From the NCBI GenBank assembly GCA_036245525.1, contig BTPG01000002.1, positions 168,808,625 through 168,872,624 of the forward strand: a stretch of DNA of 64,000 nt, in the 5' to 3' direction. Shown in pieces: positions 5,035 through 35,272 of this stretch. The DNA is from Semisulcospira habei. Lineage: Eukaryota; Mollusca; Gastropoda; Semisulcospiridae. The translations under genes and the position numbers were made by a program. Numbering within the stretch: position 1 is the first letter of the stretch; each line of letters starts with the position of its first letter. The notes beneath the pieces were generated by a model. That model worked only from the letters and a program-made list of their open reading frames with translations, searched no databases and was not told the origin of the DNA.

Positions 5035-5634
5035 GAAGACGTGTCTGGCCTGGCTCTCGCGCCGCTTCGACCGGTCCTTCTCTTGCCTACGCTCGTTGCC
5101 TCTTCGTGTGCTCTGCGCCTCCTAGCGCTGACCTGCCTTCTTGTGCCCTGCCTCTGCTGGCGTCGTTCTGCTGCTCTCCTCTAGGCTGTGGAGGTGTATG
5201 ACTACCCTTCCCCCTGTTCCCGATTCGTCTCGGAGGTAAGGTAGTGGTAGTTTCCCACAGCCGGCCCTCGGGCCGAGAGCCGGCTACCGTTGGGCTTCCT
5301 TTCGGCTTTGCTACTACGTGGGCGCCAGTTGTTGAGCTTACGCTTCGGCGCCTTGCACGACCTTTTTTACGAGTCTCCTTGAGGGACGTCGCCTTCCCTC
5401 CTTTGGTATTTCACTGTTGCGAGAAGACGTTGCCTTGTAGACTAGGGTTTCTGTTCTCGTAGGGCCTTCGGGCACCCACACTCCGTTCGTCTACCTTAAA
5501 GGCCCTTTAGCTCTGGGAGACTGTAGCCACTATTTACGCGCCGGTGGTTACGGCGCTTGGAGTACCTTGGTGTGGGGCTAGGCTCCCTTGTCCGCCTTTG
5601 CGACCTTGTGCTCTTTGTCTGTTGCAGGAACCAA

Positions 5635-9736: not shown

Positions 9737-10647
9737 CTAATCCTCAGCTGGCGGACTTCTTCCTCTGGCTCTTTCGAGACTTAGGCCTGGCCCCCATCAC
9801 CGTGAGGGGTTACCTGTCCATGATCGCTGACACTTATCGACACCTTGGACACCCAGACCCGGGCGCCTGCAAAGACTTAGCCGACCTTATGGGTCACTTC
9901 GGCATCCAGCGCCCAACACACCGCTCACTCCTTCCCCGCTGGGACCTGCCCTGGGTGCTAACGTGGTTAAATTCTGACAGATTTGAACCCTTACCTTTGG
10001 CCCGTTTCGCAGATGTGACACGAAAGACGTGCTTCCTGCTGGCCCTTGCTACCGCCTCTCGGGTGAGTGAGATACACGCACTCTCGGCGCGGCCTACCTG
10101 CCTACAGTTCCGAGCGGACGGGTCTGTTCAACTCCTCACTGACCCTGCCTTCCTGGCCAAGAACAGGTCTCCTCTGACGGCACCTCATGTTATCACCTTA
10201 CGGCCGCTAAGAACCAACCCTCTGTCTCAGGAGACCAGGCAACAGGATCCCGTGCGCGCCCTTAGAGTTTATCTGCGACGATCTAAAGCCTTCCGCAGAG
10301 GGCGTTCGCGCCTCTTCCTACCTCTGAGACCCAGCAGGAATGACATAACAGCCCAGACGATCTCGTCCTGGCTCCGCTGGGTTATACGCTCCGCGTATCA
10401 AGATATCTCCCCGCAGGGAGCGAAGAGGCTGCACATTCGCGCACATGAGGTACGAGCCATGGCCACGAGCCTCGCATTTGACCGAAACTGCGCTGTCAAG
10501 GACATCGTGGCAGCCGTGGGCTGGCAGACTGAATCTGTATTCGCCCGCTTCTACCTCAGGGACCTGGCAGGCCAAAGAGAGAATCTCGCACTAGTGGGGG
10601 ACATCGCCGCGGCGCAACACTCCCTCCCGGCGCCACCGGCGCCGTAG
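9400..10647 (+). CDS. DIRS ORF3: tyrosine recombinase
   Basis: The frame is open far upstream, but the protein becomes recombinase-like only from about 9490. ATG 9400 is a plausible start (~415 residues). The N-terminal core-binding domain includes RPSTIRVYEGKWRVLCSWC and ADFFLWLFRDLGLAPITV. The catalytic domain shows the first Arg in ATASRVSEIHAL, the H-x-x-R box in IRAHEVRAMATS, and the nucleophilic Tyr in FARFYLRDL. These match the R-H-R-Y pattern of DIRS/phage-integrase recombinases. It overlaps the 3' end of ORF2 by more than 300 nt in another frame. The enzyme would insert the circular DNA intermediate without a target duplication. Confidence 0.88.
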   Translation: MLGGPAVSCAVCLQPLLDHRPSQPRHGPAPAASRPTHHAQATASAAVPPLPGAAPPSRLEVVRQALGARGYSGAAVEAIASARRPSTIRVYEGKWRVLCSWCSEHGLSPTELTNPQLADFFLWLFRDLGLAPITVRGYLSMIADTYRHLGHPDPGACKDLADLMGHFGIQRPTHRSLLPRWDLPWVLTWLNSDRFEPLPLARFADVTRKTCFLLALATASRVSEIHALSARPTCLQFRADGSVQLLTDPAFLAKNRSPLTAPHVITLRPLRTNPLSQETRQQDPVRALRVYLRRSKAFRRGRSRLFLPLRPSRNDITAQTISSWLRWVIRSAYQDISPQGAKRLHIRAHEVRAMATSLAFDRNCAVKDIVAAVGWQTESVFARFYLRDLAGQRENLALVGDIAAAQHSLPAPPAP

Positions 10648-12723: not shown

Positions 12724-12783
12724 ATGGCCAAGGAATCGCTCGCACCCGAATTTTTCCAGAATCTTTATAACAGAATTCAAGAG
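12724..12783 (+). CDS. Exon 1 of the DUF4476-like gene
   Basis: Encodes MAKESLAPEFFQNLYNRIQE. The donor is GAG|GTGAGC and the phase is 0. Confidence 0.8.
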
Positions 12784-12946: not shown

Positions 12947-15900
12947 CGTGCGTGCGCCTGCGTGCGTGTGTGTGTGTGTGTTTAGGGAGGTGCTTGTCGG
13001 CATATGACGCTTGCATTTACATTTGGCAGACAGAATTATATCATTTAGAGTGGACGAAGTCAGTGATTAACACATTCTACCCCAGGAACGAAATCCCCAA
13101 ATTTTGAAGTTGCCCTCTGAAGGACTGTATTACAATTCCAGAGACGGTTCGAGCATGATAGTTCAAGGGTGGTGCCAGAATAGCTTGGCGCCTATGGGCG
13201 CCAAGCTGTTCTGGCACTACCCTTGAACTGCCATCTCGATCCGTGTCTTGCTGTGGTGTGTCGGGGCTGAACGAGTTATACGTTTGCTTTTGTTGTTGAC
13301 AGCAAACAGATGATTACAACAAAAAGATACAGATCTTGTATGCCTCTAGAGGATACTTCGATGCTGAGCAGGTAATGGTCTAGAACATTCGATTTGTACA
13401 TCAGGTCTTTTTACAATGTGTCACAATATGGGTGTCATCTTCCGTGTTTCAAGTTTAACCCATTTAAACCCATAGACGCATTTCCCAAACCTTAGAGATG
13501 TCATCTCACAAAGCATGTACCACTTGCATGAGAAGGAATGACCATGACAATTTAAGGGTAATGCCAGATCAGCTTGGCGCCTGATCTGGCACTACCCTTA
13601 AATTATCATGGTTAGTCAGCTGCTGTAGGGTTTTGGGGCTAAATGGGTTAAGCACTGGTAACATGGTCTTTGGGATTTAATCAGTATTAACACAGATACA
13701 TCTGTACATGTAGTTTATCCAGTTTAATTGTGTATGTGCTGTATAGTTATGAGTACATTCATTTATAACAGGATTCATGCAGGATATGCAATGCATGACC
13801 AGTCAATATCAATGCTTTTCTTTTAACTCTTCATCAAACTGCTATCTACTGTCAATTCCTATTTTAGCTGTTGCCCTTTGAACAATAACAGACAGTTCAA
13901 GAGATGATAGCACAAGGGTGGTGCCAGAATAGTTTGGTGTCTAGGGGTGCTAACCAATTCTGGCACCACCCTTGAACTATCTCGAGTTAATCTATATATA
14001 GTAGCATGTCAGGGCTGATACTCTGTAAAATCTTGTATTTCAACATCTTGAGAAATCAAAAGCACATGTGAGAATTCTTTTTGTTGACTTTTCTAATGCT
14101 TTTAATACTGTTGAACCACTGATGCTTTTGCAGCGTATGATGGACTTTAATGTGAACACAAACATTATTCTGTGGGTGCGAGACTTTTTGAAGGACAGGC
14201 CACAACGTGTAAATGTACACGGCAGTCTGTCTGACCAAGTGGTGCTAAATTCAGGCTGCCCTCAAGGTTGTGTCCTCTCTCCGACATTGTTTTCTATATA
14301 CACAGACATTATGCGTTGTCACACTGCCACTTCTCGTCTCTTAAAGTTCTCAGACGACATGGCCCTTGTACGCCTACTCCAAAAAGAAGACAGTCTGGCC
14401 GAGTACTTTGCACAGATAGCAGTATTAGAGTCATGGTGCAAAGATAGTTTTCTGGAAATGAATGTACAGAAAACCAAGGAACTCGTCATTGATGACAGGA
14501 AAGTTGATGATATTTTTGTACCTGTCTCAATTAATAATCAACCTGTAGAGGTGGTCACTGAATTTAAGTACCTTGGCACAGTCGTGGATAGTGGGCTGTC
14601 CTTCACTGGAAACACTGATCTGATTGTGAAAAAAGCAAACCAGCGTCTGTACCTTCTTAGGAAACTGAGAAGTTTTGATGTCAGTTCCAGGGTTTTAGAA
14701 TCCGTTTATAGAAGCCTGATCGAAAGCATGCTGACGTTTAACATCACTGCTTGGTATGGCAATCTCAGTATGAAAAACAGGGGCAGACTGTCACGTATCG
14801 TCAGAACAGCTGAGAAGATCATTGGCCTAGGACAGTACCCAGTAGATGATCTGTACCATAGAGTTGTCCGAAGGATAGCTGCTAGCATTGTCAATGATCC
14901 TAGTCACCCACTCTCTGATCAGTTTTAAATGCTACCATCAGGCAGACGTTTCAACATGCCACTTGCCAAAAGGAATGTTTTTAAGAAGTCTTTTATTCCA
15001 ACTGCTGTCTCGATTTTGAACTCTCGTTTATAATGCTGCGATAAGTATGATCTACTTAACATTACCTCCCATCTTGTGACAGATTGCTTGTGATAGATTG
15101 CTGCAATGATAATTTTTCATGATATGCTTTTGCAGTGTTTGTTAATGTCTTATATTGTTGTTTCATGACGAGCCGAAAGGCAAATTTCTGTCGTGCCTGG
15201 ACTCGAACAGACAATAAAGTTGTATTGTATTGTATTGTATTGTATAGGTTAACACTTTGACTCCCAGAACTAAATGATTTCCATTCCACAGAACAGAAGT
15301 CATTTAGTTCTGAGGGTCAAAGGTTTTAAAGTGATGTGGTATTGTGGCTAAGGACAGTATACAGGAAACAAAGGGCCTCAGGCTGACCGTGGCCATTGTG
15401 GGCCCAAAGACGGTTTGCTACTGGGATATAATAAAAGCTCGTTTTCTCTCTACTTGCAGGCCTCTCTCCTTCTACATGAGCTCAGTCGACCCTCAGACAA
15501 ACTGAAGGCCATCAGAATACTGGAACCTGTAAGCTTTCATCATGACCAGAAAACATTTCTTGTTTTAACCCATTATTTTAAGTCCCAATGCCCTAGGGCA
15601 GGAGACAGATCAACCATGATAATTCCAGGGTAGTGCCAGATGAACTTGGTGTCTGAAGAGACCAGGCTCATCCAGCACTACCCTTGAATTATCATGGTCC
15701 ATCCATCTCCTGCAACTGGTACATGGTTGTTAGGTTGCACTTCCAAATGTGACTGTGTGGTTAACCCATATACTGAGGCTAAAAGCTTCAAATTTGTACA
15801 CTGCCATATGCAAGCTATATTATAGTACTTACAGATAAGGATATAGACCAATGGCTTTAGTTCAAGGGTGGTGCCAGAATAGCTTGGCGCCTAGAGGTGC

Positions 15901-18900
15901 CAAGCTATTCTTGCACTACCCTTGAACTATTTTAGTCAAACTTATTTCACACACTGGTGTATTCCAAATGGTAAGGGTTAAATGGGTTAATGGTTGTTGT
16001 TTTTATAAATCTGTAAACATGTATATTTTGTGCTGGAGCCAGTCATAATAAATGCTCGATTTCATTTTAAAGTACTGGAATGACTGCAAATCAGGCAGTC
16101 ATTTTGAAGTATTTTGGGTTCATTGGCCACCTACTGTACTGTCTTGGCCATATACTACATCCATCTCAGAGGTCCTAATGCTGGGCTAATAAGTATAGGT
16201 TTAAACGTGCATGTGTTTTTCAGAGACTCTGTCGCATGAGCTGCCAGGATGCACGCACCATCTTGACAGCCTTTAACATCCAGAACGATCGCCTCATTGC
16301 TCTGGACAGTGTCAAAAGGTTGGACCTGATATGTTGCATATGTTTCACATAATAACTTCTTTCTTCTTTTTCTTTTTGTGTGGTTGAGGGGGGGGGGGGG
16401 GATATCAGATAAGTGCATTTTTGGCTCACGTGCAAAGTAAAAGTGAGTCTATGATCTGGGCCAGTGGTCGTCTGTTGTCCATCCGCCGTCCGTCGTCAGT
16501 GGTAAACTTTAATGTTGGCATTTTCTCAGAGTCTCTTCAAACTACAGTCTTCAAACTTGGCCTAAGGATACTTTTTGGCAAGACCTTTCTAAACATACCA
16601 ATTTCAGTGACCTCTCACAAAGGTCAAGGTCACAAGGGATCAGGAAATATATCAAAAATAGCTATTTTGGGACATAATTTATTTTTTCTCAAATCCTATT
16701 CACAACTTCACATCCAAACTTGGTACAAAGATACCTGATGGTAAGACCTTTATACGGACACTAATTTGGTTGATCCCTCGGAAAGGTGATCAAGGGTCAA
16801 AAGAGCTCAAGAAATACGTCCAAAATCACCATATTTTTACAAAAAATGCTTTTTCTCAAATACTATTCACAACTTCAAACCCAAACTTGGCCCAAAGATA
16901 CCTGATGGTAAGACCTTTCTATGCATACTAATTTGGTTGATCCCTCAGAAAGGTCAAGGGTCACAAGAGCTCAAGAAATAGGTCCAAAATAGCCATATTT
17001 TGTGACAAAAGTTTTTTTTTCTCAAATACTATTCACAACTTAAAACGCAAAATTGCTACAGAGATACCTAATGGTAAGACCTATCTATGCATACTAATGT
17101 GGATGACCCCTCGGAAAGGTCAAGGGTCACAAGAGCTTAGGAATATGTAAAAAAAAAAAAGACATATTTTGACAAGAAATGTTTTTTTCTCAATTACTAT
17201 TCACAACTCCAAACCCAAATTTGCTACAGAGATACCTGATGGTAAGACCTATCTATGCATACCGATGACATCCTCGATCTCTGTGATGAGAGGAGAGCCT
17301 GGAAGAAAAAGAGAGGCCAAGACCTCACATCAGCAAACAAGTACAGACTTGTCAACAAGAAGATCAGGAAGAGGATGAAAGAAGACAAAGAAGATTGGAT
17401 TGAAGGCCAGTGTTGTAGCGTGGAAGAGGGCATGGCAAACGGCAACAGCAAGAAGGCTTATGAAACGCTAAGGACCCTCACCAAGACTCAACAGCGAACA
17501 GCCGCAGTCATCGAAGACAGCAGCGGCCAACTCCTTACGGAAAACACTGCTGTACTAAACAGATGGACTGAGTACTGCCGAGACTTGTATAACTACAAGG
17601 CTGAGCCAGACACCAGCATCCTCCAAAACAACCAGGCTGGGGCCAGGAAGGCTGAAGACCTGCCAGTGTTAGCTAAAGAGGTGGAAGCAGCCGTACGCGG
17701 CCTGAAGGGAGGAAAGTCTCCAGGTGTAGACAACGTACCTGCTGAACTGTTGAAACATGGAGGAGAAGTAACAACGAAGGTCCTCACTACACTCTGTCAA
17801 AAGATCTGGGAGCAAAAGAAATGGCCAGTAGAATGGACACAGTCTCTAGTGATCCCGCTCCCCAAGAAAGGAAACCTGAAACAGTGCCAGAACTACAGAA
17901 CTATCAGTCTGATAAGTCACCCTAGCAAAGTAATGCTTAGAATCATTCTCAACCGCCTCAAAACTTTCGCCGAGGAACTGCTGGCAGAAGAACAGGCTGG
18001 CTTCAGAGTTGGAAGAAGCACTGTAGAGCAGATTTTCAACTGCCGCGTCCTGATCGAGAAACATCTGCAGCATCAGCGCGAACTCTACCACAACTTCATT
18101 GATTTCAGGAAAGCATTTGATCGCGTCTGGCACGACGGACTCTGGCAAGTCATGAGATCGTTCAACATAGAGGAGGGACTGATCCAAATGATAGAAGCGC
18201 TTTACAAGAACGCCTGCAGCGCGGTTATACTTAACAATCAGTCAGGCGAGTTCTTCAGGACGACGATCGGTGTCCGTCAAGGATGCCTGCTCTCTCCTGT
18301 CCTTTTCAACATATTCCTGGAGAAGATCATGCAGGAAACCCTCCACGACCACCATACTTCAATCTCTATTGGTGGCAGATCCCTGTGCAATCTTCGATTC
18401 GCAGATGACATTGACCTCATGGCAGGCAGCAATAGTGAGCTCCAAAACCTGACAGACAAACTTTCAAGTAGCGCAGGGTCTTATGGCATGGAGATCAGTA
18501 CGGATAAAAGCAAAGTGATGATCAACACCACAAGCGACAGCAGCAGCAACATTCACATGAACGGCCAGAAGCTAGAAGAGGTCAATAGCTTCAAGTACTT
18601 GGGAGCCACCCTGTCCAAAGACGGTAGTTGCATAGCAGAGATCCGTATCAGGATAGGTACAGCAACATCCGCAATGGCCAGGCTGGACAGGATATGGCGA
18701 AGTAACTCCATCAGCTTCACCATCAAGTACAGGCTTTACAAGTCCCTCGTAGTGTCTATTCTACTCTACGGCTGTGAGACTTGGACACTGCTTGCAGACT
18801 CAGAAAAGAAAATCCAGGCCTTTGAGAACAAGTGCCTGAAGAAGTTGCTCCGCATCTCGTACCGCGAGCACAAGACCAACGAATATGTACGGAGCATCGT

Positions 18901-21900
18901 CACTTCCCTGGTGGGCCCACATGAACCCCTTCTGGCAACCGTGAAACGGCGCAAGCTTGCTTGGTTTGGCCACGTGACCCGACACAACACCTTGTCCAAG
19001 ACTATCCTCCAAGGCACTCTCGAAGGAAGTCGTCGGCGAGGTCGTCAGAGAAAGAGTTGGGTCGCAAACATAAAAGAATGGACCGAACTCGAGATGCCAG
19101 ACTTGCTTGCCACCGCCCAAAATAGAACTCAGTGGAGAGCACTGTCTGTTGCTGCTGCCTTTCAGTCCCCCCAACGCCCAGTTCGGGCAAGGGACTGATG
19201 ATGATGATGATGATGATGCATACTAATTTGGATGACACTTTGGAAAGGTCAAGGGTCACAAGAGGTTGACAAATGTGTATAAAATGCCAATAATTGTAGT
19301 TATTATCAACATTTTTGCAAACTTTTCAATCAATTGGCACAAAGGTAGCTGACGATAAGACCTTCCTTCATTCATTCATTCAGTCCTCTCTGCGCCGTCT
19401 GGTGCTTGAGGCGACGGCAAGGGAGCGCCACTTTTGTCTGTCAGCTGCTATTTTGGGTGCTGTTTGCAGAGTAAGGCCTCTGTTCTTGAGCTCTCGCTCC
19501 ACGGTTCGGCGCCACGTCTCCTTTGGTCGCCCACGGTTTCTCTTCCCCTGTGGTGTCCATCTCAGTGCCACCCTTGGTAATGAGTCAGGTGACATTCTGC
19601 AAACGTGGCCTAGCCATCTCCATCTCCGTGTGGCGATGGTTTCAGCGATGCTGTCTGCGCCTGCTCTCTTCCGTAGTTCCTTGTTTGTAATCATGTTTGG
19701 CCAGAAGACCTTCATGATCCGTCGCAGGCACTTGTTCTGGAAGACATCCAGCTTGCGTTCCGTAGCGGTAGTGGATTTCCAGCATTCTGACCCATATAGG
19801 ACACTCAGCACGTTGCTCTTAAAAATACGGAGCTTGGTGTGGATGCTCAGGCTTGTGGTCCTCCAGATGGGTTTCAGCATTGCGAAGGCTTGGTTGGCTT
19901 TGCTGATTCTTGTGGTGATCTCCCTTGTGCAGTCTCCATCTGTGGTAACCTTGCTGCCCAGGTACGTGAACTCGTCCACCTCTTGCAGAGGTTGGTCATT
20001 GATGGTGATTGGGTCGCCCACTATGGTGTTCTTCCTCATGACTTGAGTCTTCCTAATGTTGACCCCGAGACCTATGGAGCTTGCTGACTGTGTCAACTGT
20101 TGTGTCTTCTGTTGCATGTCCTGGTTTCTGCTTGCCAGCAGCCCGATATCATCGGCGTAGTCGAGGTCATCCAGCATTGAGGTCAGCGTCCACTGAATTC
20201 CCTGCCTCCTTCCCTCTGTGGTGCGGCGCATGATCCAATCAATTGCCATTGAGAATAGGATTGGCGAAAGAATACATCCTTGTTTCACTCCGGTTTCCAC
20301 CTTAAACGGTTCGGTGAGCTGGTTGTTGTGGACGACTCTGCACTCAAAATTCTTGTACAGGGACCTGATGACGTTGACAAGTTTCTGGGGGATTCCATAG
20401 TATCGCAGGATTTTCCAAAGGGAGTCTCGATGCAGACTGTCGAAGGCCTTCTCAAAGTCTACAAAGACCACATAGAGGGATCCATTCCATTCGTTAGACT
20501 GCTCAAGGATCTGTCTCAGTACGAAAATATGGTCAATGCAGGACTTGCCTTTCCTAAAACCTGCCTGCTCCCGGCGAAGGATGCCATTCACTGCTGTCGT
20601 AATGCGTTCAAGGAGAATGCGGCTGAAGATCTTGCTGGTGAGGGATAGTAAGGTGATGCCTCGCCAGTTGTTACAGTTCCCCAGGTCTCCTTTCTTCGGA
20701 AGTTTGACGATGGTGCCGGTCTTCCAATCGCTCGGCGCTTCCTCAGTGTCCCAGATCTTTTGAAAAATCTGACAAAGAAGCTGCGGCGTTACCGTATCTT
20801 CTACTTTCAGCATCTCGGGGCACACTCCGTCATCGCCAGGTGCCTTCCCGTTCTTCAGCTTTTGAATGGCCTGCTTGACTTCCGCAATAGTAATGTTGGC
20901 GAGGTTAATGTCCAGGTCCTCCTCCGCTTCAGGAATGTCAGTGAGGGTTGGTGGGTCTGAGCGGTTCAGGATGGACTCGAAGTGTTGCTTCCATCTCTTC
21001 AGCTTCTCTTCCTCTACTGTGACATGAGTTCCATCTTCAGCTCTCACTGGAAGGTCGTGGTGTTGCCCGTAATCGCCCTTCAGCTTCTTGGTGTTCTGGT
21101 ACACTGTCTTCATGTCTCTCTGTTTTGCAGCTGCCTCCGCTTCTTCTGCCAGCCTTTCTGTGTACATTCTCTTGTCTCTTCTCGCTGATGTCTTCACCGC
21201 TTGATCTTTCTCTCTGTATTCTCTTGATATTCTTTCCTTCAGTCTTGGTGATTTGGTATCCAAAAGTTTCTTCTTGATCTGTCTTCTCTCTTCTATGCGA
21301 GCCCACGTGTCTTCTGAGATCCACTCTGTCTTCCTGCTCTTTCTGTATCCTAAAACTTCCCCTCCTGTTTCCTTCATGGCTCTGTTGAAATCTTCAATAG
21401 TCAGCGCTGTCTCATCTTCCAAAACACTAAATCTATTCCTGAGGGCCAACCTAAACTCTTCTTTCACTTTTGGGTCTTTCAACTTGGCCACGTCGTAGCG
21501 CTGATTTCTGGTGTCTCCTATCTTTACTTTCCTAAGCTTCAATGTCACCTTCCCCACCAGAAGACTATGGTCGCTGCCAATGTCAGCATGTCGCATCACT
21601 CGCACATCCTGCAGAGAGTGCCTCCAGCGACCATTAATGATGATGTGGTCGATCTGGTTCTGGGTCTTGCCGTCTGGTGATTTCCATGTGAGTTTGTGGA
21701 TCTCCCTATGCGCAAACAGGGTCCCTCCTATGACTAAGTCATTCTCCTCGCAGAAATTGACCAGCCTCTCCCCGTTGTCGTTGATCACACCCGCTCCATG
21801 TCGTCCCATGGTCCTCTTTCTGTCTTCATTGTCGCAGCCGACCTTAGCGTTGAAGTCACCGATCAGCATCAGCACGTCATGTCGAGGGATGTCTTCCAAA

Positions 21901-24900
21901 ACAGCTTGGAGGGCGTCGTAGAATGCATCCTTATCCTCTTCTTCCGCGTCGTCTATCGGTGCGTAGCCCACAACAATAGACAGCTTTGCGTATTTGGAAT
22001 TCATCCTGACGTACAGCAGGCGCTCGTTCACAGGTTTCCACTGTAGAACGGTGTTGGCCTTGCTCTTATTGATGATGACAGCAACTCCTTCTCGGTGTTC
22101 GTTGTCTGTTCTTCCAGACCAGATGATGACTTCTCCGGAGCTCAACCTCTGTCTGCCAGCACCAGTCCATCTTGCTTCTGTTACTCCCATGAGGGTTAGT
22201 TTGTGGCGGTTCAGTTCACTTACTGCTTGCGCCAGCTTTCCAGTCTGGTAGAGCGTTCGCACGTTCCAGCATCCAATTCTGATCCATCGTTTTGGCGTCA
22301 GGAGTTCCGCTATCGGGGTGGAGACGTCCTTGCGGCTTTGGTCCCCATCCGTCATAAGTCCAGTTTCCTGGTCTGCTTCGCTCCCAGCGCCGGTTGTCGC
22401 TTTTTCCCTTGTTGTCGTTTCCGTAGCAAGTTTCTTTTTACAGGGTGGAGTCGCTAGCCCCACGCCTAACCCTCCTCCTTTATCCTGACTTGGGACAGGC
22501 AGTTAAGCCCCCAAAGGGGCCTCCCTGGTGGAGTTTAAGACCTTCCTATGTATCCTAATTTAGTTGACTCATCGCTGGGATCACGGGGGTTTCACAGATG
22601 TGTGAAAACTGATTAAATTTTGAGAAAACATGGATTTTGTTAGTGCAGAAGACATCCCTTAATGTCAGACATCTGTGGATCGGTCAATACACATGAGCCA
22701 TAAGGGCTTTGCCTTTCTTGTTGCAATATTGTTCTTCAGTCATATATGCTTCAGGCAAAAGAACTGCCTCATTCCAAGGCACATCTGACACTAGTGTTGG
22801 TCAGCAAGGGCAAAGGCCATCGGGCTGACGTTGGCCCGTGCACAGCCATATAGAGATCGAATGTGTAAAACGTTTCTAGATTCCAGTCTCCTAACCCTCT
22901 AACTAACAGAGTTAAATAATTATATGCTCTAAATTGTCATGGTCTGTCGACATCCCACTGTTGCTGTCAGGTGCTAATACTGAGAAACAGTGAACACGAT
23001 CCAACTACAACAGACGTAGATCCCAATGCACCCCGCCGCAGTTGCAAAGGCTCATGAGGATCTATGCCTCTTGCTGGGGCTCTTTGGTGTTGATTTAACA
23101 CATATTTCACAAACACAATCTGTGTCCAATGCCAGCGAAATGGTTAAACAATTGTAAGAATTCAGTGTATGTGTGTGTGTGTCAGGGGGAGGGGGGGGGG
23201 GACAACCTGTGCACATAATATGAAGAGCTGTTGCCCCTAAAAGTTGTTTCATGATGAGTATGATTGTACACAGTTTAACCCATTTAACCCCACATCCACA
23301 GTTCCCAGAATTTGCAGTCAACACCTAACAACTATAAAATGTACATGTGCCACTTACAGGAGATGAACCGACCATGATAATTCAAGGATAGTTCCAGGCA
23401 AGCTCCATCTGAGGCGCCAAGCTGGGAGCTGGCACTACACTTGAATTATCATGGTCCATCCAGTTCCTGAGGGGTGTCGAGTCTAAAACAGGTACTGAGT
23501 GACTGTTCTCTGTGTTTCAGAGTTCTGACTGATAGCCAAACAGTTCTTGGAGAAGAATACATCTTGAGTACATTCCCCTTTGAGGGTGATAAGAGGACGG
23601 CACTTGCAATCTTGCGGACGGTGAGGACAACTGAGTTTTTGTCTACCGTATTGGGGCTGGTCGGAGCAAGTTCTGTAGCATGCAAGTGATGAACATAGGC
23701 GGGCACACATCAGACTCTGACAGTGAAGTAACACAATAAAAACTACGTCATGCCTGGCTACGCCGAACCGCGCTATTGAACGTACATTTGGCGGGAACCG
23801 CTATGTGTGTGTGTGTGTAGACATGAGTTTCTCCTGTGTCTGTGCACATACAGGTCTGAAAATTTAGGAAATACTTCCTTTAAGATGGATCTCAGAGTAC
23901 TTTTCAGCATTTTTAGATTGGATTACTCTTTTTTTTTTTTTTAAATTGCCGTTTATACAAGGTCGGTTGATCCGCATTTGAGTCCGTAATTTGTGTTATA
24001 TTCATTCAAAATTTTTAATACAGCTAGCTTCAAGAAAGACATTCGATGAGTTCGTTAACCAGCTTTTTAACTATTCAATGTTTTAGTAACAAAATAATTA
24101 ATCACAGAAAAAAAGTCTGTGTTACTATAGAGCCGGTTAAAAAACTTGTCCTCACCGTCCAGTGAGGAGAAGTTTTATAGGTCTATAGTTACACTGTACA
24201 TTTATTTGCCTGCATTATTACCTATTTTTTTACACTTTACAACGTTGGATATAAATAATTCAGGTAACTATAGATTTAAAAAACTTGTCCTCACCGTCCG
24301 CGGACAGTGAGGACAATTTTTTTAACTCTATATTTACATGCATTATTTATTTCACTGCAACATTGCAAAGTGAAAAAGTGAAAAAAGAAGTATTAATGCA
24401 GGCAAATAAATAATGCATATAACTATAGGGTTAAAAAAAAATGTCCTCACTGTCCGCGGACGGTGAGGACAAGTTTTTTAAATCTATAGTTACCTGCATT
24501 ATTTATATCACTGCAACGTTGTAAAGTGTAAAAAATAGGTAATAATGCAGGCAAATAAATGTACAGTGTAACTATAGACCTAAAAAACTTCTCCTCACTG
24601 TCGGCGGATAGTGAGGACACATTTTAAAACTCTATAGTTACATCCATTATTTAATTTGCCTGCATTATTACCTCTCTTTTTTTTCACTTGACAATGTTGC
24701 AGTGAAATGTGCTGTCTTGGCCACAGTCATGTCAAGAACTGTGCATTTGCGGTAAAGAGTTCAAATCATATTTGCCGATAAGTCAACTGAAAATGTAATG
24801 TCTGTCTATGAGCGAAATTCAGCTAAAGCTAATGTCAGCTCAGTGAACTGTTGATCTCTGGAATGATGGGGAACTTCCATTAACATTGTGTTTTGTACCC

Positions 24901-27221
24901 TCTTGCAGGTTCGGTCAGATGTGTTTGACAAGATTGGATCAGGCGGTCACCAAGGTTACGCGTCACTGGGTGGGCTGTACACACAGGCTCGTCCTTTGCA
25001 TGAACATCTGTATGGCTCTCTGGCTGAGCAGGCCCTTCACATGCCGGTAAGCAGATTAAATTAACCCATTTAGCCTCGATGCCCTAGAGCAGAGATGGGT
25101 TAATCATGTCAAGGGTAGTGCCAGATTAGCTTGGCGCCTGAAGGCGCCAAGCTAATTTGGCACTACCCTTGAATTATGGTCAATCCGTCTCCTGCAACTG
25201 TTACATAGTCATTAAGCAGCACCTTTCAAAATTTGAAAAAAATGTGGTCATGGGGTTAAATTGTTAAAGCATTGGGCTCTGCCTCGCACGCTCGAATTCC
25301 TCTTTAGTGGCATGTACTGAAGGGCATCCACAGAGAGACACCAGCTGCAGCCAGTTCTGCTTGTTTGCAGAGGGTGTTCCTAGTTATCCATTTGGCTGTC
25401 GGTAGCGCTTTTTGTCAAGGTGATTCCTGCAGGCCCTGATCAAGAGCAGCTATGATGGCATGACATGTCGCGTGATCCACGAAGGGCAGTTCACCAGAGA
25501 GCTCCAGGTCAGAACTGGTGTCAGGCAGGGGTGTCTGCTGTCTCCGTTCCTCTTCCTACTGGCCATAGACTGGGTCATGAAGATGACCACAGAGCACAGA
25601 CGAAGTGGAATACAGTGGACACTGTGGACACAGCTTGACGACCTCGATTTTGCAGACGACTTGGCATTACTGTCCCACACTCATCAACAAATGCAGGACA
25701 AGACCACGAGGCTTGCTGACATCTCGTCCCAAGTGGGCCTCACCATTCACAAACAGAAAACAAAGACAATGAGGCTGAACGCAACCAGGGAAGAACCAGT
25801 CTTGCTTGCTGGCACCCCGTTGGAGGAGGTGGAGTCCTTCACCTATCTCGGGAGCATCATAGACAAAAAAGGCGGCACTGATGCAGATGTCAGAGCACGA
25901 ATCGGTAAAGCCAGAGCAGCCTTTCTCCAGTTGAAAAAAGTGTGGAGTTCCAGAGAGCTGTCACAACACACCAAAGTCCGGATTTTCAACTCCAGTGTAA
26001 AAGCAGTTCTCCTATATGGAGCAGAGACATGGAGATTGACAAAAACCACAGTCAACAGAGTACAGACCTTCATGAACAGTTGCCTTAGAAGAATTTTGAA
26101 AATCCACTGGCCAGAGAAGATCAGCAACGTCAGACTCTGGGAGAGAACAGAGCAGATAACAGCAGAGAATGAAATTGGGCGAAGAAGATGGGGATGGATC
26201 GGTCACAGTCTGAGAAAGCCAGCTTCCAGTATCACTAGGCAGGCATTGTCATGGAACCCCCAGGGAAAGAGGAAAAGAGGTAGGCCGAGAAACTCCTGGC
26301 GTCGAGACCTCCAAGCAGACATCAAGAGACTGGGAACCACCTGGAGTAGAATCGAAGGAGAAGCACAGGACAGGAGTTGCTGGAGGTCTCTCGTCGACGG
26401 CCTATACCCGGGTAGGGGTGACAGGCGTAAGTAAGTAAGTAAGATTCCTGCAGGAATCACTTTGACAAAAAGCGCTACTGGCAATCAAAGGGTTAGGCTG
26501 GCGTCCTTCACTCGCAATTCATTTTGCCCTAAGCCACTGTGTTCAATCAAAATTCTTGAATTTAGGACCTGGCTGCAAGAGAGTACATATCTGTGGGAGA
26601 CAGATCAGCCGTGACATAGTTCAAGAATGATGCTAGAATAGCTAGGCGCCTAGCTCATGGTTGATTCGTCTCTTTTCTTTTAGTATAGTTTCAAGACTGA
26701 CTGACTGGGGTGGGGTGGGGGAGGGGGGCTGGTTCCAAACTCCCCAAAAGGGAACTCCTCCCTCTGCCCCTGACATGTAATACTCTGTGTCAAGCTGTTC
26801 TACCACAACAGTCAATCCATCGATACTAATTAAATGTTTACCCTTTGACTGTCAGTAGCTGTTTTTGTTGTGATGATCCCTGCAGGAATCATCGTGACAA
26901 GAACCGCAACAGGCAGCCAAAGGGTTAAACTGACCTTTTCTTGAATCTTGTTTTCCACAGGGTCAAGGCAAAATCGAGATTCCACCCATGGCCAGGGTTG
27001 GTCACGTGCCTTCCATCTACACGGGCCACCCCTCCTATGCCTACACACCTGACACATCGTACCAAGAGCACCATGGCTACCCAGGCACAGTTGGCTTTCC
27101 TGCACGGGTGGAGGGTCCATCCATTCCCTACCCTGGGGGAGCTCCACCCCTGGGAAACAATACGGGGGCCCCTGCACCCACTGGCTTTCCCAAGCTCGAC
27201 TCTCGGGGATTTGTGTACTGA
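12724..27221 (+). CDS. Seven-exon gene for a 263-residue DUF4476-like protein
   Basis: Exons 12724-12783, 13303-13371, 15460-15528, 16224-16318, 23521-23620, 24909-25046 and 26961-27221 all have GT-AG borders and join in frame to give 263 residues ending at TGA. The start ATG has a good context (GCAAAAATGGCC), follows promoter-like sequence, and is the first Met. Residues ~40-125 contain repeated units with the pattern DKLKAIRIL...DARTILTAF..QNDRLIALDSV and ILSTFPFEGDKRTALAIL. This resembles the alpha-helical DUF4476 repeat (inference). Next comes a conserved-looking segment (SDVFDKIGSGGHQGYASLGG, then LYTQARPLHEHLYG). The tail is low-complexity, rich in Pro, Gly and Tyr. There is no signal peptide or membrane segment, so it is probably cytosolic. 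The function is unknown. Introns 2 and 4-6 carry transposons; intron 4 is 7.2 kb because of two LINEs. Confidence 0.82.
12906..12981. repeat. Compound (TG)n / (CGTG)n microsatellite in intron 1
   Basis: A TG run passes into GCGTGCGTGCGTGCG and back to TG. It lies ~120 nt after exon 1. Confidence 0.93.
13067..13280. repeat. Family E hairpin element, intron 1
   Basis: Family E has the hairpin core of family A but different ends: TTAACNCATTCTACCCC, then AAATCCCCAAATTTTGAAGT on one side only. Here the arms are GGGTGGTGCCAGAATAGC and GCTGTTCTGGCACTACCC. It ends GGCTGAACGAGTTATA. Confidence 0.8.
13303..13371 (+). CDS. Exon 2 of the DUF4476-like gene
   Basis: Encodes 23 residues (QTDDYNKKIQILYASRGYF, then DAEQ). 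The acceptor is TTGTTGACAG, the donor GTAATG, and the phase 0. Confidence 0.8.
13455..13651. repeat. Family A hairpin element with a shortened apex, intron 2
   Basis: Ends TTAACCCATTTAAACCC and GGGGCTAAATGGGTTAA. The right arm jumps from GGCGCC directly to TGATCTGGCACTACCC, so the inner CCAAGCT segment is deleted. Confidence 0.82.
13824..14028. repeat. Family A/E-like hairpin, disrupted at its right end
   Basis: The core is GGGTGGTGCCAGAATAG and CCAATTCTGGCACCACCC. The outer right part stops at GTCAGGGCTGATA, where LINE sequence appears to begin. Confidence 0.65.
14029..15246 (+). mobile_element. 5'-truncated CR1/L2-like LINE in intron 2
   Basis: It carries the 3' half of an RT ORF and a 3' end of five TTGTA repeats after GACAATAAAG, typical of CR1/L2-group LINEs. 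The 5' limit is approximate. The element is in the same orientation as the host gene. Confidence 0.82.
14068..14928 (+). pseudogene. LINE reverse transcriptase fragment with an in-frame stop
   Basis: A 286-residue open segment with RT motifs VDFSNAFNTV, GCPQGCVLSPTLFS, LKFSDDMALV and FKYLGTVVDSGL. The catalytic box reads FSDD rather than the usual F/YADD. A TAA after DQF is followed in the same frame by MLPSGRRFNMPLAKRN and KSFIPTAVSILNSRL, the expected C-terminus. The stop is therefore probably a point mutation, and the copy is dead. Confidence 0.85.
15249..15325. repeat. Short TTAA hairpin, family G
   Basis: Arms CCAGAACTAAATGA...TCATTTAGTTCTGAGG are bounded by TTAACACTTTGAC and GTCAAAGG. 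A relative with the same arms is at 60729-60808. Confidence 0.75.
15460..15528 (+). CDS. Exon 3 of the DUF4476-like gene
   Basis: Encodes 23 residues including LHELSRPSDKLKAIRILEP. The acceptor is CTCTCTACTTGCAG and the donor GTAAGC. Confidence 0.82.
15565..15990. repeat. Family A element interrupted by a family F element
   Basis: The family A copy begins TTAACCCATTATTTTA and ends ...GTGTGG|TTAA|ATGGGTTAA. The internal TTAA of its normal GGGGTTAAATGGGTTAA end is occupied by the family F copy at 15761-15981, with TTAA on both sides. Confidence 0.82.
15761..15981. repeat. Hairpin element, family F (F1), nested
   Basis: Family F is ~221 bp, TTAACCCATATACTGAGGC to GGTAAGGGTTAA. Outer unique DNA (CTTCAAATTTGTACACTGCC) is on one side. 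The core hairpin is GGGTGGTGCCAGAATAGC and GCTATTCTTGCACTACCC. TTAA is duplicated on both sides within the host family A element. Confidence 0.87.
16224..16318 (+). CDS. Exon 4 of the DUF4476-like gene
   Basis: A 95-nt exon (RLCRMSCQDARTILTAFNI, then QNDRLIALDSVK). The acceptor is TGTTTTTCAG. The donor AG|GTTGGA is weaker than the others, and the codon is split AG|A. Confidence 0.82.
16422..17262 (+). repeat. Element with 167-bp tandem repeats, left part (intron 4)
   Basis: It starts TTGGCTCACGTGCAAAGT and GTCCATCCGCCGTCCGTCG. It then contains about four tandem units with a period of 166-168 bp, as shown by GATACCTGATGGTAAGACC ending near 16740, 16907, 17073 and 17241. The same units resume at 19216-19367 and 22536-22640 after two LINE insertions. 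An ACACATGAGCC segment near 22690-22700 mirrors the GGCTCACGTG start. The layout recalls the molluscan 'pearl'-type elements with ~160-bp core repeats, but no sequence comparison was possible. Confidence 0.75.
17263..19198 (+). pseudogene. LINE reverse transcriptase, N-terminally truncated, otherwise open
   Basis: About 645 residues with no internal stop. RT motifs include VIPLPKKGNLKQCQNYRTIS, EEQAGFRVGRSTV, FIDFRKAFDRV, GVRQGCLLSPVLFN and FADDIDLMAG (catalytic DD). The C-terminal part has LYGCETWTLL and RRKLAWFGHVTR, then RRRGRQRKSW, as in RTE-like LINEs. The first ATG in this frame (17255) lies in the target-site duplication, so it is not the element's own start. The endonuclease is absent, so this copy cannot move on its own. 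Confidence 0.88.
17263..19215 (+). mobile_element. 5'-truncated RTE-like LINE inserted in the 167-bp repeat
   Basis: It is flanked by ATGCATAC at 17255-17262 and 19216-19223, and ends in a (GAT)n tail. The host sequence reads continuously across the gap (CTATGCATAC then TAATTTGG), so the insertion is cleanly resolved. The endonuclease domain is missing. Confidence 0.9.
19368..22535 (-). mobile_element. Apparently full-length RTE-like LINE
   Basis: A 3.17-kb element inserted in the 167-bp repeat of intron 4, antisense to the host gene. The 12-bp direct repeat TAAGACCTTCCT flanks it exactly (19356-19367 and 22536-22547). The 3' end (left side) has a short (TGAA)n tail, seen as TTCATTCATTCATTC on the plus strand. 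The leader before the ORF is only ~72 nt, as in RTE-type elements. Confidence 0.93.
19380..22463 (-). CDS. Intact LINE ORF: AP endonuclease and reverse transcriptase, 1027 residues
   Basis: After a ~65-residue basic, low-complexity leader comes the APE-type endonuclease domain: IRIGCWNVRTLYQTGKL, MGVTEARW, VLMLIGDFNAKVG and GSDHSLLVGKVTL. It covers residues ~70-300. The reverse transcriptase follows: GTIVKLPKKGDLGNCNNWRG, EQAGFRKGKSCIDH, FVDFEKAFDSL, GVKQGCILSPILFS and the catalytic DYADDIGLL near residue 770. The C-terminal region contains LYGSECWKST, RWRWLGHVCRM and GKRNRGRPKETW, typical of RTE-like LINEs. All the catalytic motifs I can judge are present and no stop or frameshift is seen. 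The protein would nick target DNA and copy its own RNA there. Confidence 0.93.
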   Translation of the reverse strand: MGLATPPCKKKLATETTTREKATTGAGSEADQETGLMTDGDQSRKDVSTPIAELLTPKRWIRIGCWNVRTLYQTGKLAQAVSELNRHKLTLMGVTEARWTGAGRQRLSSGEVIIWSGRTDNEHREGVAVIINKSKANTVLQWKPVNERLLYVRMNSKYAKLSIVVGYAPIDDAEEEDKDAFYDALQAVLEDIPRHDVLMLIGDFNAKVGCDNEDRKRTMGRHGAGVINDNGERLVNFCEENDLVIGGTLFAHREIHKLTWKSPDGKTQNQIDHIIINGRWRHSLQDVRVMRHADIGSDHSLLVGKVTLKLRKVKIGDTRNQRYDVAKLKDPKVKEEFRLALRNRFSVLEDETALTIEDFNRAMKETGGEVLGYRKSRKTEWISEDTWARIEERRQIKKKLLDTKSPRLKERISREYREKDQAVKTSARRDKRMYTERLAEEAEAAAKQRDMKTVYQNTKKLKGDYGQHHDLPVRAEDGTHVTVEEEKLKRWKQHFESILNRSDPPTLTDIPEAEEDLDINLANITIAEVKQAIQKLKNGKAPGDDGVCPEMLKVEDTVTPQLLCQIFQKIWDTEEAPSDWKTGTIVKLPKKGDLGNCNNWRGITLLSLTSKIFSRILLERITTAVNGILRREQAGFRKGKSCIDHIFVLRQILEQSNEWNGSLYVVFVDFEKAFDSLHRDSLWKILRYYGIPQKLVNVIRSLYKNFECRVVHNNQLTEPFKVETGVKQGCILSPILFSMAIDWIMRRTTEGRRQGIQWTLTSMLDDLDYADDIGLLASRNQDMQQKTQQLTQSASSIGLGVNIRKTQVMRKNTIVGDPITINDQPLQEVDEFTYLGSKVTTDGDCTREITTRISKANQAFAMLKPIWRTTSLSIHTKLRIFKSNVLSVLYGSECWKSTTATERKLDVFQNKCLRRIMKVFWPNMITNKELRKRAGADSIAETIATRRWRWLGHVCRMSPDSLPRVALRWTPQGKRNRGRPKETWRRTVERELKNRGLTLQTAPKIAADRQKWRSLAVASSTRRRRED
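22536..22702 (+). repeat. Element with 167-bp repeats, right end
   Basis: The tandem unit resumes after the LINE (AAGACCTTCCTATGTATCCT, then TTTAGTTGACTC). It ends near ATACACATGAGCC, which is complementary to the GGCTCACGTG-like start at 16425. Confidence 0.6.
22880..23100. repeat. Remnants of hairpin elements (families A and D), intron 4
   Basis: 22913-22980 keeps AGTTAAAT and TTGTCATGGTCTGTCGAC, a decayed family A arm. 23003-23072 has CAACAGACGTAGATC and GGCTCATGAGGATCTATGC, a decayed family D hairpin. Confidence 0.5.
23275..23490. repeat. Family A hairpin element, intron 4
   Basis: It starts TTAACCCATTTAACCCCAC. The apex is unusual: AGGCAAGCTCCATCTGAGGCG and GCCAAGCTGGGAGCTGGCAC. It ends without a clear TTAA, about 30 nt before exon 5. 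Confidence 0.72.
23521..23620 (+). CDS. Exon 5 of the DUF4476-like gene
   Basis: A 100-nt exon encoding VLTDSQTVLGEEYILSTFPF and EGDKRTALAILRT after completing the split Arg codon. Its donor region, GCGGACG|GTGAGGACAA, is repeated exactly within the following intron. Confidence 0.84.
24120..24680. repeat. Large nested palindrome in intron 5 carrying copies of the exon 5 splice donor
   Basis: An inverted repeat of about 430 bp (24164-24596) is centred near 24380. Left AGGAGAAGTTTTATAGGTC... is the reverse complement of right ...GACCTAAAAAACTTCTCCT with few mismatches. Within each arm are smaller perfect palindromes of the form TTGTCCTCACCGTCCGC|GGACNGTGAGGACAA. 24285-24301 is the exact reverse complement, and 24456-24472 an exact copy, of the exon 5/intron 5 junction at 23614-23630. 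Flanking units TGCCTGCATTATTACCT and AACTATAG recur. No ORF or known transposon ends were recognised. Confidence 0.85.
24909..25046 (+). CDS. Exon 6 of the DUF4476-like gene
   Basis: Encodes 46 residues from VRSDVFDKIGSGGHQGYASL to AEQALHMP. The acceptor is CCCTCTTGCAG and the donor GTAAGC. Confidence 0.84.
25061..25266. repeat. Family A hairpin element, intron 6
   Basis: TTAACCCATTTAGCCTCGATG to GGGTTAAATTGTTAA, with arms AGATTAGCTTGGCGCC and GGCGCCAAGCTAATTTGGCA. It begins 15 nt after the exon 6 donor. Confidence 0.87.
25433..26434 (+). pseudogene. Truncated LINE reverse transcriptase (C-terminal ~333 residues)
   Basis: The frame is open from the first base of the insertion (ALIKSSYDGMTCRVIHEGQF). 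Motifs: GVRQGCLLSPFLFL, DDLDFADDLALL, FTYLGSIIDKKGG, LLYGAETWRLT, RRRWGWIGHSLRKP and GKRKRGRPRNSWRRD. It lacks the endonuclease and the N-terminal half of the RT. There are no stops within the remaining frame, so the insertion is probably recent. Confidence 0.9.
25433..26442 (+). mobile_element. 5'-truncated LINE at the centre of a hairpin element, intron 6
   Basis: GATTCCTGCAG is present on both sides (25422-25432 and 26443-26453), an 11-bp target duplication covering one half of the family B centre. The 3' end has a (GTAA)n tail. It is the same LINE family as the copy at 510-721. Confidence 0.92.
26837..26928. repeat. Family B hairpin element
   Basis: Lies 32 nt before exon 7. The arms are CCCTTTGACTGTCAGTAGC and AGGCAGCCAAAGGGTTAA, with CTGCAG at the apex. 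Confidence 0.84.
26961..27221 (+). CDS. Exon 7 (terminal) of the DUF4476-like gene
   Basis: Encodes 86 residues of Pro/Gly/Tyr-rich tail (for example GHPSYAYTPDTSYQEHHGYP) ending SRGFVY and TGA. The acceptor is GTTTTCCACAG. No AATAAA was found soon after the stop. ATTAAA at about 27909 is a possible but unsupported poly(A) signal. Confidence 0.82.
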   Translation, partial: GQGKIEIPPMARVGHVPSIYTGHPSYAYTPDTSYQEHHGYPGTVGFPARVEGPSIPYPGGAPPLGNNTGAPAPTGFPKLDSRGFVY

Positions 27222-32225: not shown

Positions 32226-35034
32226 CTCTTGGCTTGACTTCGCGAACGAAGATTTTATAGGAGTTGCCCACGACGTCTGCAGGCTTGTTCGTGGCTGCGG
32301 AGGCCAATCCGAGACAGGCAGGTTCGACCGCAGTGGCTGCAGGGGAAGGTATGGCCAGGGTTCTGAGCTGCGGCATCTCTGTTTTTTCTCCTGAGCCGCT
32401 TGTCCTTAAGGCTAGCTCTGTGAGAGTCCTCAAAGGAGACAGCTGCCTTGTAAATGGTGGAGCGCCAGGTGTCACGGTCCGCAGCAAGCGAAGACCACTG
32501 GTGGTGGTCGATTTGGCAGGCACTAAGTGACTTCTTGAGACAGTCTTTGTATCTCTTCTTTGGTGCCCCTCTGTCACGGTGTCCAGTAGCAAGCTCGCCG
32601 AACAGGGTGATCTTTGGTAGGCGATGATCCTCCATCCTGGAGACATGCCCCGCCCAGCGGAGCTGTGTCCGCAGCAGCAAAGCCTCGATGCTCACAGTTT
32701 CAGCCTGTTCAAAGGACCTCGACGTTGGTGACATAGTCACTCCAGTGAATGCCCAGGATGGTACGCAGGCAGCGCTGGTGGAAGCGTTCGAGGAGTCGTA
32801 GTTGGCTGCGGTAGAGGGCCCAAGACTCGGAACCATACAGCAGGGTGGTGAGGACCACAGCTCTGTACACGCTGATCTTGGTGCCTGTTTTCAGCTGTTG
32901 ATTGTGCCACACCCGCTTGAAAAGTCGCCCGAAAGCGCTGTTCGCTTTTGCCAGCCTGCTGTCAAGCTCCTTGTCCAGCTTGGCGTCCGACGTGATAATG
33001 CAGCCAAGGTAAGTAAACTGGTGCACTGACTTTAGTTCAGACTCGCCAATAGTGATGTGAGGAGGGCGATACACTGTCTTGGGTGCCGGCTGATGGAGGA
33101 CCTCTGTCTTTTTCAGACTGACCTCGAGTCCAAAGAGCTGGGCAGCATCTGCGAAGCAAGACGTGATGCGCTGCAGGGCTCTCTCTGTGTGTGCAACGAG
33201 GGCAGCATCATCAGCAAAAAGCAGCTCACGAATCAGTTGGTCTAGGGTTTTCGTGTGGGCCTGCAGTCGTCTAAGGTTGAACAGGCTGCCATCGAGACGA
33301 TACCTGATGTACACTGCATCGTCATCATCGAGGTCCACTGTGGCCTGCTTCAACATCATGCTAAAAAAGATGGTGAAGAGGGTCGGTGCCAGCACGCAGC
33401 CCTGCTTTACGCCGTTGAGAATAGGGAATGGTTCTGAGAGATCATTGTTGAGTCTGACCTGGCCTTGCTGGTCCTCGTGTAGCTGGACAATCATGTTGAG
33501 GAACTTTGGGGGACAGCCAAGTCGCTCCAGGATCTGCCACATGCCTTGCCTGCTCACAGTGTCGAACGCTTTTGTTAGGTCGACAAATGTTACGTACAGC
33601 CCTTTGTTCTGCTCGCGGCACTTCTCCTGTAGCTGTCTCAGCACAAAGACCATATCGGTGGTGCTCCTGTTTGCTCTGAAGCCACACTGGCCCTCTGGGA
33701 GTTGGTCTTCAGCGATGGCAGGTACCAGCCGATTCAGGAGCAGCCTTGCAAGGATTTTCCCAGCAATGGACAGCAGGGTAATTCCCCGATAGTTGGAACA
33801 GTCAGACTTCTCGCCTTTGTTCTTGTACAGGGTGATAACGACTGCATCACGGAGATCTTTTGGTAGTGTTCCTTCCTCCCAGCAGCAGAGAAAGAGGTCA
33901 TGGAGCTTGTTGTGCAGTGCTGTGCCTCCATGTTTCCAGATCTCTGGCGGTATTCCATCAATGCCTGCTGCTTTGCCACTCTTGAGCTGGTGGATGGCTG
34001 TGAGGGTCTCTTCAGCGGTGGGCGGTTCGTCCAATTCAACCTTTACTGGGAGGTGTGGGATTTGTAGGACGACTGCTTCTTGAACAGTGTGCGCTCAGCG
34101 CTGAAGAGGCTCTGAAAGTATTCCGACCAGCGGTTCAAGATGGAAGTATTATCTGTGAGGAGTGCCTGGCCATTCGCGCTTCGCAGGGGACTTTGTACCA
34201 GGTGCCTGGGGCCATACACTGCTTTCAGTGCTTCGTAGAAGCCCCTGTAGTCACCATTGTCAGCACAAAGCTGGGTCCTCTGTGCAAGTCTGGTCCACCA
34301 CTCATTCTGGAGATCTCTGAGCTTGCGCTGGAGACTGCTGCAGACGAGGCGGAAGGCAGATTTCTTCACAGGGCAGGAAGGCTGGGCTAGGTGGGCCTGA
34401 TGGGCGGCTCTTTTTTTTGCTAGGTGTTCCTGGATCTCTACATCGTTTTCGTCAAACCAGTCTTTGTTCTTCTTTCTGGCGAAACCCAAGACTTCTGCAG
34501 AGGATTTTGCAATAGCAGTTTTCAGTTGTTCCCAAAGTGTTTCAGGGGAGGAGTCTACTGGGTCCGCCGTGTCTTTGAGCCTGCGCTGTAAATCTGTCTG
34601 AAAGGCAGCTTTCACATCGTCACGCTGAAGGCTGGCAACGTCAAGCTTTTTCTTGGGGGGCCCCCATTTCTTGGGTTTTGGCTTGAAGTGGAGCCTGAGT
34701 TTGCAGCGGACAAGGCGGTGGTCAGTGTGGCACTCTGCGCTGGGCATCACTCTGGTGAGGAGGACGTCACTGCGGTCCCTCTGACGCACTAGGACATAGT
34801 CGATAAGGTGCCAGTGTTTGGAGCGAGGATGCATCCAGGTGGTCTTTCGACTGTCCTTTTGCTGAAAAGTAGTGTTGGTGATGACCAGTTGCTGCTCCGC
34901 ACAGAACTCCAACAGTAGGCGGCCATTGTCATTGCAGTTCCCCATGCCATGCTTGCCGAGGACTCCTTTCCAGGCTTCAGAGTCCTGGCCCACTCTGGCG
35001 TTGAAGTCGCCAAGGATGATGACTTTGTCGTCTG
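32226..35034 (-). mobile_element. 5'-truncated LINE with a C-terminal zinc finger
   Basis: Flanked by CATACATTTACT at 32214-32225 and 35035-35046 (12 bp, exact). The minus strand carries most of the endonuclease domain, the RT and a C-terminal finger, broken by two frameshifts. It sits in the intergenic region between the two convergent genes. Confidence 0.92.
32255..35034 (-). pseudogene. LINE endonuclease/reverse transcriptase, two frameshifts
   Basis: Segment 1 (35034-34043) holds the C-terminal endonuclease motifs [24 protein letters not shown] and [13 protein letters not shown]. Its apparent start Met comes from the flanking target duplication. A ~1-nt shift near 34085 leads to segment 2 (34034-32709), the RT: GFRANRSTTDMVFVL, FVDLTKAFDTV, GVKQGCVLAPTLFT and LLFADDAALVAH. 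A second shift near 32710 leads to the C-terminal segment, which ends in a C2H2-like finger, FPCSHCGRTCLSRIGLRSHE followed by QAC. The order matches RTE-like molluscan LINEs. With the frameshifts and truncation this copy is inactive. Confidence 0.9.
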
Positions 35035-35272
35035 CATACATTTACTAGTAAATGGTAAACTGTTCACACATACAAACATGCTAGTAACAGCTTTTGTAGC
35101 CATGGCAACCTTTTTCAACACGTAAAAGTCAACTGGTATCTTAAGATTCAAAATGCTTCCTGTAAAAGCAATATACATTTGTTCATGCTCCTTACAAGTA
35201 TACAACACAGGCCTCAGAAAAAAAAATTCTGAGAATATAGCAAAAATGAAAATCCGGATTTGTTTGAAAAGA

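Follow-up and report, generated by a model that had tools for sequence, protein, structure and literature searches.

A palindromic array in intron 5 of a Semisulcospira habei gene carries sense and antisense copies of the intron's own splice donor and may be a product of local fold-back copying

Intron 5 of a DUF4476 gene in the snail Semisulcospira habei contains an array of four palindromic units, whose core repeats the exon 5/intron 5 boundary of the same gene exactly and in both orientations. The array lies within a stretch of 64,000 nucleotides of contig BTPG01000002.1, which we refer to as the window and in whose coordinates all positions are given. Four things can be read directly from the DNA: the sequence identity, the palindrome geometry, the truncated repeat that borders the array, and the finding of no other genome copies at the search sensitivity applied. 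Our preferred explanation, which we hold with moderate confidence, is that the array is the product of local fold-back copying, that is, of serial template switching, that captured the exon 5/intron 5 boundary. The features that matter for the argument are the following:

12724-12783, 13303-13371, 15460-15528 and 16224-16318, + strand: upstream exons of the same gene
23521-23620, + strand: exon 5 of the DUF4476 (PF14771) gene, with final codons CGG ACG (R T)
23614-23630, + strand: junction 17-mer, GCGGACG and then GTGAGGACAA, across the exon 5/intron 5 boundary; three exact genome copies, all at this locus
23621-24908, + strand: intron 5, GT...AG
23636-24114, + strand: truncated high-copy interspersed repeat of about 479 nt, starting 15 nt past the donor cut
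24115-24708, no strand: array of four palindromic units in inverted arrangement, outer limits approximate; no other genome copy found
24137-24184: palindrome copy 1, centre damaged, left arm holding 24146-24160, the complement of the donor over 15 nt
24276-24325: palindrome copy 2, centre 24300/24301, holding the antisense 17-mer at 24285-24301
24432-24481: palindrome copy 3, centre 24456/24457, holding the sense 17-mer at 24456-24472 and a donor-like GTGAGG at 24463
24580-24628: palindrome copy 4, with diverged arms
24909-25046, + strand: exon 6, opening with V-R-S-D
59149-59603, - strand: another copy of the repeat, by eye also shortly after a donor-like site

The exon 5 donor is credible as a true splice site, judging from the open frame, the AG/GT borders and the T|V pair kept in relatives. 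Joined together, the six exons make up a single open frame of 177 codons; their inner borders carry AG/GT, the frame across intron 5 reads ...AILRT|VRSDVFD..., and the joined protein without exon 4 matches PF14771 with an E value of 1.3e-6. The query without exon 4 found nine protein relatives, the named ones being from Pinctada and the nemertean Tubulanus. T precedes the intron 5 boundary in all eight relatives that cover it, the residue before it being variable, and V follows the boundary in nine of nine. The match to one of the protein sequences, P0009, begins exactly at the V-R-S-D of exon 6, after letters that resemble read-in from an intron, and agrees with the exon 6 start assigned here; the position of intron 5 is therefore probably shared with the relatives and old, as far as protein letters can tell. 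A single locus of the gene was found in the genome (five matches from ten candidates, all five on exons 2 to 6).

The 17-mer GCGGACGGTGAGGACAA occurs exactly at 23614-23630 and 24456-24472 on the + strand and at 24285-24301 on the - strand. The sense recurrence and the exact reverse complement of the junction reported in a first-pass annotation of this DNA are thereby borne out, as is its 15-nt complement of the donor at 24146-24160, which is exact over those 15 nt and has two mismatches over 17 nt. Allowing up to three mismatches, the window contains eight matches, namely the junction and seven within intron 5, against 0.04 expected from 100 shuffles; further near copies lie at 24300-24316, 24441-24457, 24589-24605 and 24604-24620. 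The same annotation had taken the two exact intronic matches as two pieces of evidence, which overstates the case: 24285-24301 and 24456-24472 belong, as its two arms, to a single inverted duplication in which 24248-24323 is 97% complementary to 24434-24509 over 76 nt, so that they represent one match that was duplicated.

The palindromic units are spaced by 139, 156 and 148 nt, the segment 24120-24642 is self-complementary at 83%, and parts of copies 1 and 4 are inverted duplicates of each other (99% over 71 nt). Folded as DNA, the array is predicted to form a hairpin of -224.8 kcal/mol, compared with a mean of -55.8 kcal/mol for 20 shuffles. Within copies 2 and 3, the junction match comprises half a palindrome plus one nucleotide past the symmetry centre, and the other edge of the match lies 10 nt into intron 5, 5 nt before the start of the repeat. 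The arms carry the sequence GTTTTTTAAATCTATAGTTAC..., with A in place of G at one core position in five of the eight arms, so that the commonest core form matches the junction at 16 of 17 positions. The variable position reads ACGG in three arms and AG in five; since the form found in the junction contains a CpG, that form may be the original one. The 24-nt block at 24137-24160 recurs unchanged at 24276-24299, and 24458-24481 is its full complement. That this block is kept in copies 1 to 3, despite the divergence of copy 1's counterpart in copy 4, suggests an exchange of short tracts inside the array. We also considered an assembly artefact and think it unlikely, as the copies differ pairwise by 1% (1R versus 4L) to more than 30% (ungapped), a spread that fold-back chimeras at the read level would not show.

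Whether the array belongs to a dispersed family was addressed by searching the genome assembly (1,983,391,078 bases, 1.98 Gb, in 507 contigs). The first-pass annotation had proposed a genome search for the 17-mer and had named an abundant transposon motif at many unrelated sites as the outcome that would speak against it. The search returned exactly three copies, all within 860 nt at this locus. With up to two mismatches there are 81 genome sites for the 17-mer versus 167 for a reversed control, and hence no excess of 17-mer-like sequence; the 75 off-locus sites (81 minus 6), spread over 1276 possible words, translate to about 0.06 exact copies expected genome-wide, and the 167 sites of the reversed control to about 0.13. 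The whole array found two matches in the genome, one being the array and the other its complement. Four matches were obtained with a 33-nt arm pattern (three mismatches allowed) and six with a 115-nt piece from between palindromes (E up to 1), all in the array; a 40-nt array piece with up to three mismatches found itself once. The outcome that the annotation had named as adverse thus did not occur, and an abundant transposon motif is not supported, the 17-mer, the array and the three pieces all being confined to one locus in these searches, and copies at unrelated sites, as expected of a dispersed transposon or MITE, were not seen at the sensitivity used. These searches pass over very common words and score the best candidates only, so that very diverged relatives of the array could escape them. 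In the rest of the window, the array has no match of 14 nt or more other than the junction.

Beyond this genome, a 20-nt core pattern found no stretch in viral contigs and one stretch among the contigs of prokaryote genomes, on a bacterial contig (L009), which we take as chance. The plasmids searched gave no match, Rfam gave none anywhere in the 64-kb window, and a peptide read through the array drew no candidate from the protein database. The core letters of the array, as six strings, were absent from the text of a library of 5.39 million papers, and among the papers listed on related subjects none describes a donor-copying palindrome layout.

Between the donor and the array lies the truncated repeat. 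In a genome BLAST that scored 40 of 5277 first-look candidates, matches to the repeat span 23652-24114, and comparison of the flanks with 11 copies and with the copy at 59149-59603 places its 5' end at 23636. A T-run and a GTCTACCGTATT...AATACGGTAGAC hairpin mark the start of the family; the hairpin start is clear in 10 of the 11 inspected copies, the remaining one (L023) being diverged there. Beyond the point equivalent to 24114, common sequence continues in 11 of 11 copies, in some after internal gaps and in one (L025) only to about 147 nt. The intron 5 copy is without the second hairpin arm (23 nt) and without everything past 24114, and the array begins within a few nucleotides of this cut-off end. 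The 900 nt that follow the equivalent of 24114 in the 11 copies hold no match to the array. Construction of the array from the adjoining repeat or from the junction flanks was rejected, as there is no similarity beyond the 17 nt. As a separate observation, the donor is also able to pair locally with the start of the repeat (23614-23655, about -12 kcal/mol), which would be a second possible occluding structure.

How might such an arrangement have arisen? Let us suppose that a copying strand left the intron, entered the final part of exon 5 and came to a halt at GCGG. The stalled strand would then snap back on the self-complementary CCGCGG and copy itself. The captured piece, no fewer than 7 nt from the end of exon 5 together with 10 nt from the beginning of intron 5, would become the core of four palindromes lying head to head as this process was repeated between two fold-back points. 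The high-copy repeat, later or perhaps in the same repair, would have landed immediately after the donor, leaving only 17 nt of common sequence beside the exon; this displacement of the remaining junction-like sequence is a step that we propose. As a by-product, the pre-mRNA would carry its own antisense to the donor, together with decoy donors. That such copying took place, which way it ran and whether it came before the repeat are inferences. In its favour, 24285-24301 is a perfect reverse-complement copy of nearby sequence (23614-23630), and the template appears local rather than dispersed, three of three exact copies being at the junction or in intron 5. The first-pass annotation had raised, as one of its two readings, that a palindromic element arose by copying the junction. 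This is the better supported of the two, considering the single locus and a match that starts at the symmetry centre, with the copying itself reconstructed.

Several observations count against fold-back copying. The arms show no similarity to the sequence around the junction outside the 17 nt, so that only these 17 nt link the array to the junction. The distance from the arms to the junction, about 500-1000 nt, is long for template switching: the nearest complementary arm is 516 nt away, with the repeat of about 479 nt between them, and so exceeds the 100-nt limit on template distance that was used for the scan in PMC7954356, a limit of that scan and not a definition. On account of this present-day separation, we class the array as made like a template-switch product and not as a proven one. 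Five nucleotides, CTGAG, between the end of the junction match and the start of the repeat are also unaccounted for by the fold-back model.

The most serious competitor is coincidence, in which an unrelated palindrome, perhaps an old element's last surviving copy, agrees with the donor over 17 nt by accident. We consider this unlikely, though it deserves attention. Random windows modelled on this one (25 for each of three Markov orders) contain on average 0.36 matches of at least 17 nt per 64-kb window, so that what is remarkable is the location of the match, between a donor and its own intron, and not its existence. A donor-like GTGAGG core would help the likeness, the arms past the 17 nt are unlike the junction flanks, and the commonest core form, with A for G in five of eight arms, reaches only 16 of 17. 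Location, however, is where coincidence fares poorly: when the 60-nt junction was compared with random 590-nt stretches, the longest match was 12 nt, reached in 3 of 3000 trials, and among the gene's 11 splice junctions ten have no more than 10 nt in common with any place within 3 kb (one of them fewer than 8), compared with 17 for the exon 5 junction. The few exact copies expected in the whole genome, as calculated above, and the edge of the match falling at the symmetry centre of the palindrome also speak against it. Another possibility, which we regard as quite improbable, is that the array is a private remnant of a Helentron/HINE-like or other tandem-repeat transposon, the junction match being either coincidental or linked to the insertion. 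The unit spacing falls within or next to the 140-180 bp of oyster HINE monomers described in PMC7492417, and a high-copy repeat adjoins the array; yet no second genome copy was found, and the 11 copies of the adjoining repeat are followed by no array match within 900 nt. An array lying between conserved flanking modules at many loci, as expected of Helentron/HINE elements, was not observed, this one having been found at one locus.

A different question is whether the array does anything. In a strong form, it would be a selected splicing switch in which 24146-24160 hides the donor and the sense copies compete for that segment, tuning the use of exon 5. With default parameters at 37 C, in an RNA running from exon 5 to exon 6, the predicted pairing of the donor with 24146-24160 is 0.98; it is 1.0 at 15 C, 0.91 in a shifted context and 0.91 with another parameter set, and in growing transcripts 0.57-1.0 once 24165 is reached. 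Five other donors are predicted to be 0.64-0.89 paired, versus 1.0 for the exon 5 donor, and their pairing beyond 300 nt is 0-0.64, versus 0.98. The duplex of the donor with 24146-24160 amounts to -30.3 kcal/mol, against -8.8 kcal/mol for the U1 5' end, for which we used what we take to be its sequence. On a scoring matrix that we likewise presume to be correct, the donor-like site at 24463 scores 8.56, equal to the true donor, with 5.41 for 24307 and 5.63 for 24611, and using the 24463 donor would bring an in-frame stop at intron positions 67-69.

These figures make donor occlusion physically possible, and to that extent the other reading of the first-pass annotation, control of splicing by competing base-pairing, stands. 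With dangling-end energies off, however, the pairing with 24146-24160 falls to 0.01, and 0.68 goes to a local hairpin that involves the start of the repeat; since one energy setting abolishes the donor pairing, control of splicing is unproven. A limit of 500 nt on pair span likewise abolishes the pairing (0.0, compared with 0.77 at 600 nt and 0.74 at 800 nt), the donor is predicted to be 0.76-0.80 paired already ahead of transcription of the array, and such folding predictions ignore U1 binding and the kinetics of transcription. In human genes, moreover, active splice sites are depleted of conserved complementary regions (PMC8052449). An effect of the array on splicing is possible under these models but not required by the evidence, and we think it very improbable that the array is a selected switch. 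That a fold-back across an exon-intron boundary provided a one-step route to a cis-antisense splice switch, here a working control of exon 5, seems to us to have an even slimmer chance of being correct.

According to PMC8794818, PMC8604942 and PMC7954356, template switching creates or repairs inverted repeats, and copies of this kind arise by short-range switching in apes, in yeast and in RNA genes; ape template-switch tracts have a median of 12 nt and a maximum of 128 (PMC7954356). The array resembles the mutations described there in its reverse-complement copies of nearby sequence, its perfect hairpins and the apparent homogenisation of its arms. It differs from them in copying a splice donor, in having four serial palindromes and in the distance of about 500-1000 nt. 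With the Helentron-associated elements of the oyster (PMC7492417) it shares a short array of units of about 140-180 bp beside a mobile element, but the Pacific oyster arrays have central tandem repeats, whereas the units here are palindromic and inverted, with a single locus found. Introners, the intron-creating transposons treated in PMC9860276, similarly have repeated sequence in common with the intron's own splice site. Unlike them, the array sits inside an intron of apparently old position and provides neither of its real splice sites; an intron gain of the introner type was rejected on the grounds that the intron 5 position looks old and its boundary is common to relatives. Long-range pre-mRNA complementarity of the kind called PCCRs (PMC8052449) offers the parallel of a complement, located in an intron, by which a splice site might be occluded. 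The difference is that the predicted pairing of the array would involve the true donor, a kind of site that in human genes is depleted of complementary regions.

If the array did originate locally by fold-back copying, it exemplifies how an error in DNA copying can supply a gene with a perfect antisense to one of its splice sites, and the interest of the locus lies in this mutational route to a self-antisense splice donor. It would join the literature on template-switch mutation with that on long-range pre-mRNA structure, and it would predict that, genome-wide, private palindromic arrays in introns contain an excess of copies of the splice sites of the intron in which they lie.

Lastly, we note other features of the window. 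Long open frames at 5527-10647 include, by eye, reverse transcriptase-like and tyrosine-recombinase-like stretches, and look DIRS/Ngaro-like; a stretch similar to them lies at 54754-56050 on the - strand. Further reverse-transcriptase-like frames, also by eye, are at 14029-14928, 17246-19198, 19380-22502 (- strand), 25424-26434 and 32709-35041 (- strand). One reverse-transcriptase-like frame of 1040 aa has a relative, in a jgi record, that is 86% identical over 95%, its named relatives being from Dreissena, Littorina and the catfish Hemibagrus. Between exon 4 and exon 5, 16552-17263 is a tandem array whose period is about 167 or 333 nt. Many sites, for example 25109-25177, 46380-46620 and 51812-51905, carry members of a family of palindromic repeats around AGCTTGGCGCCAAGCT, the last of these sites being a perfect palindrome of 94 nt.
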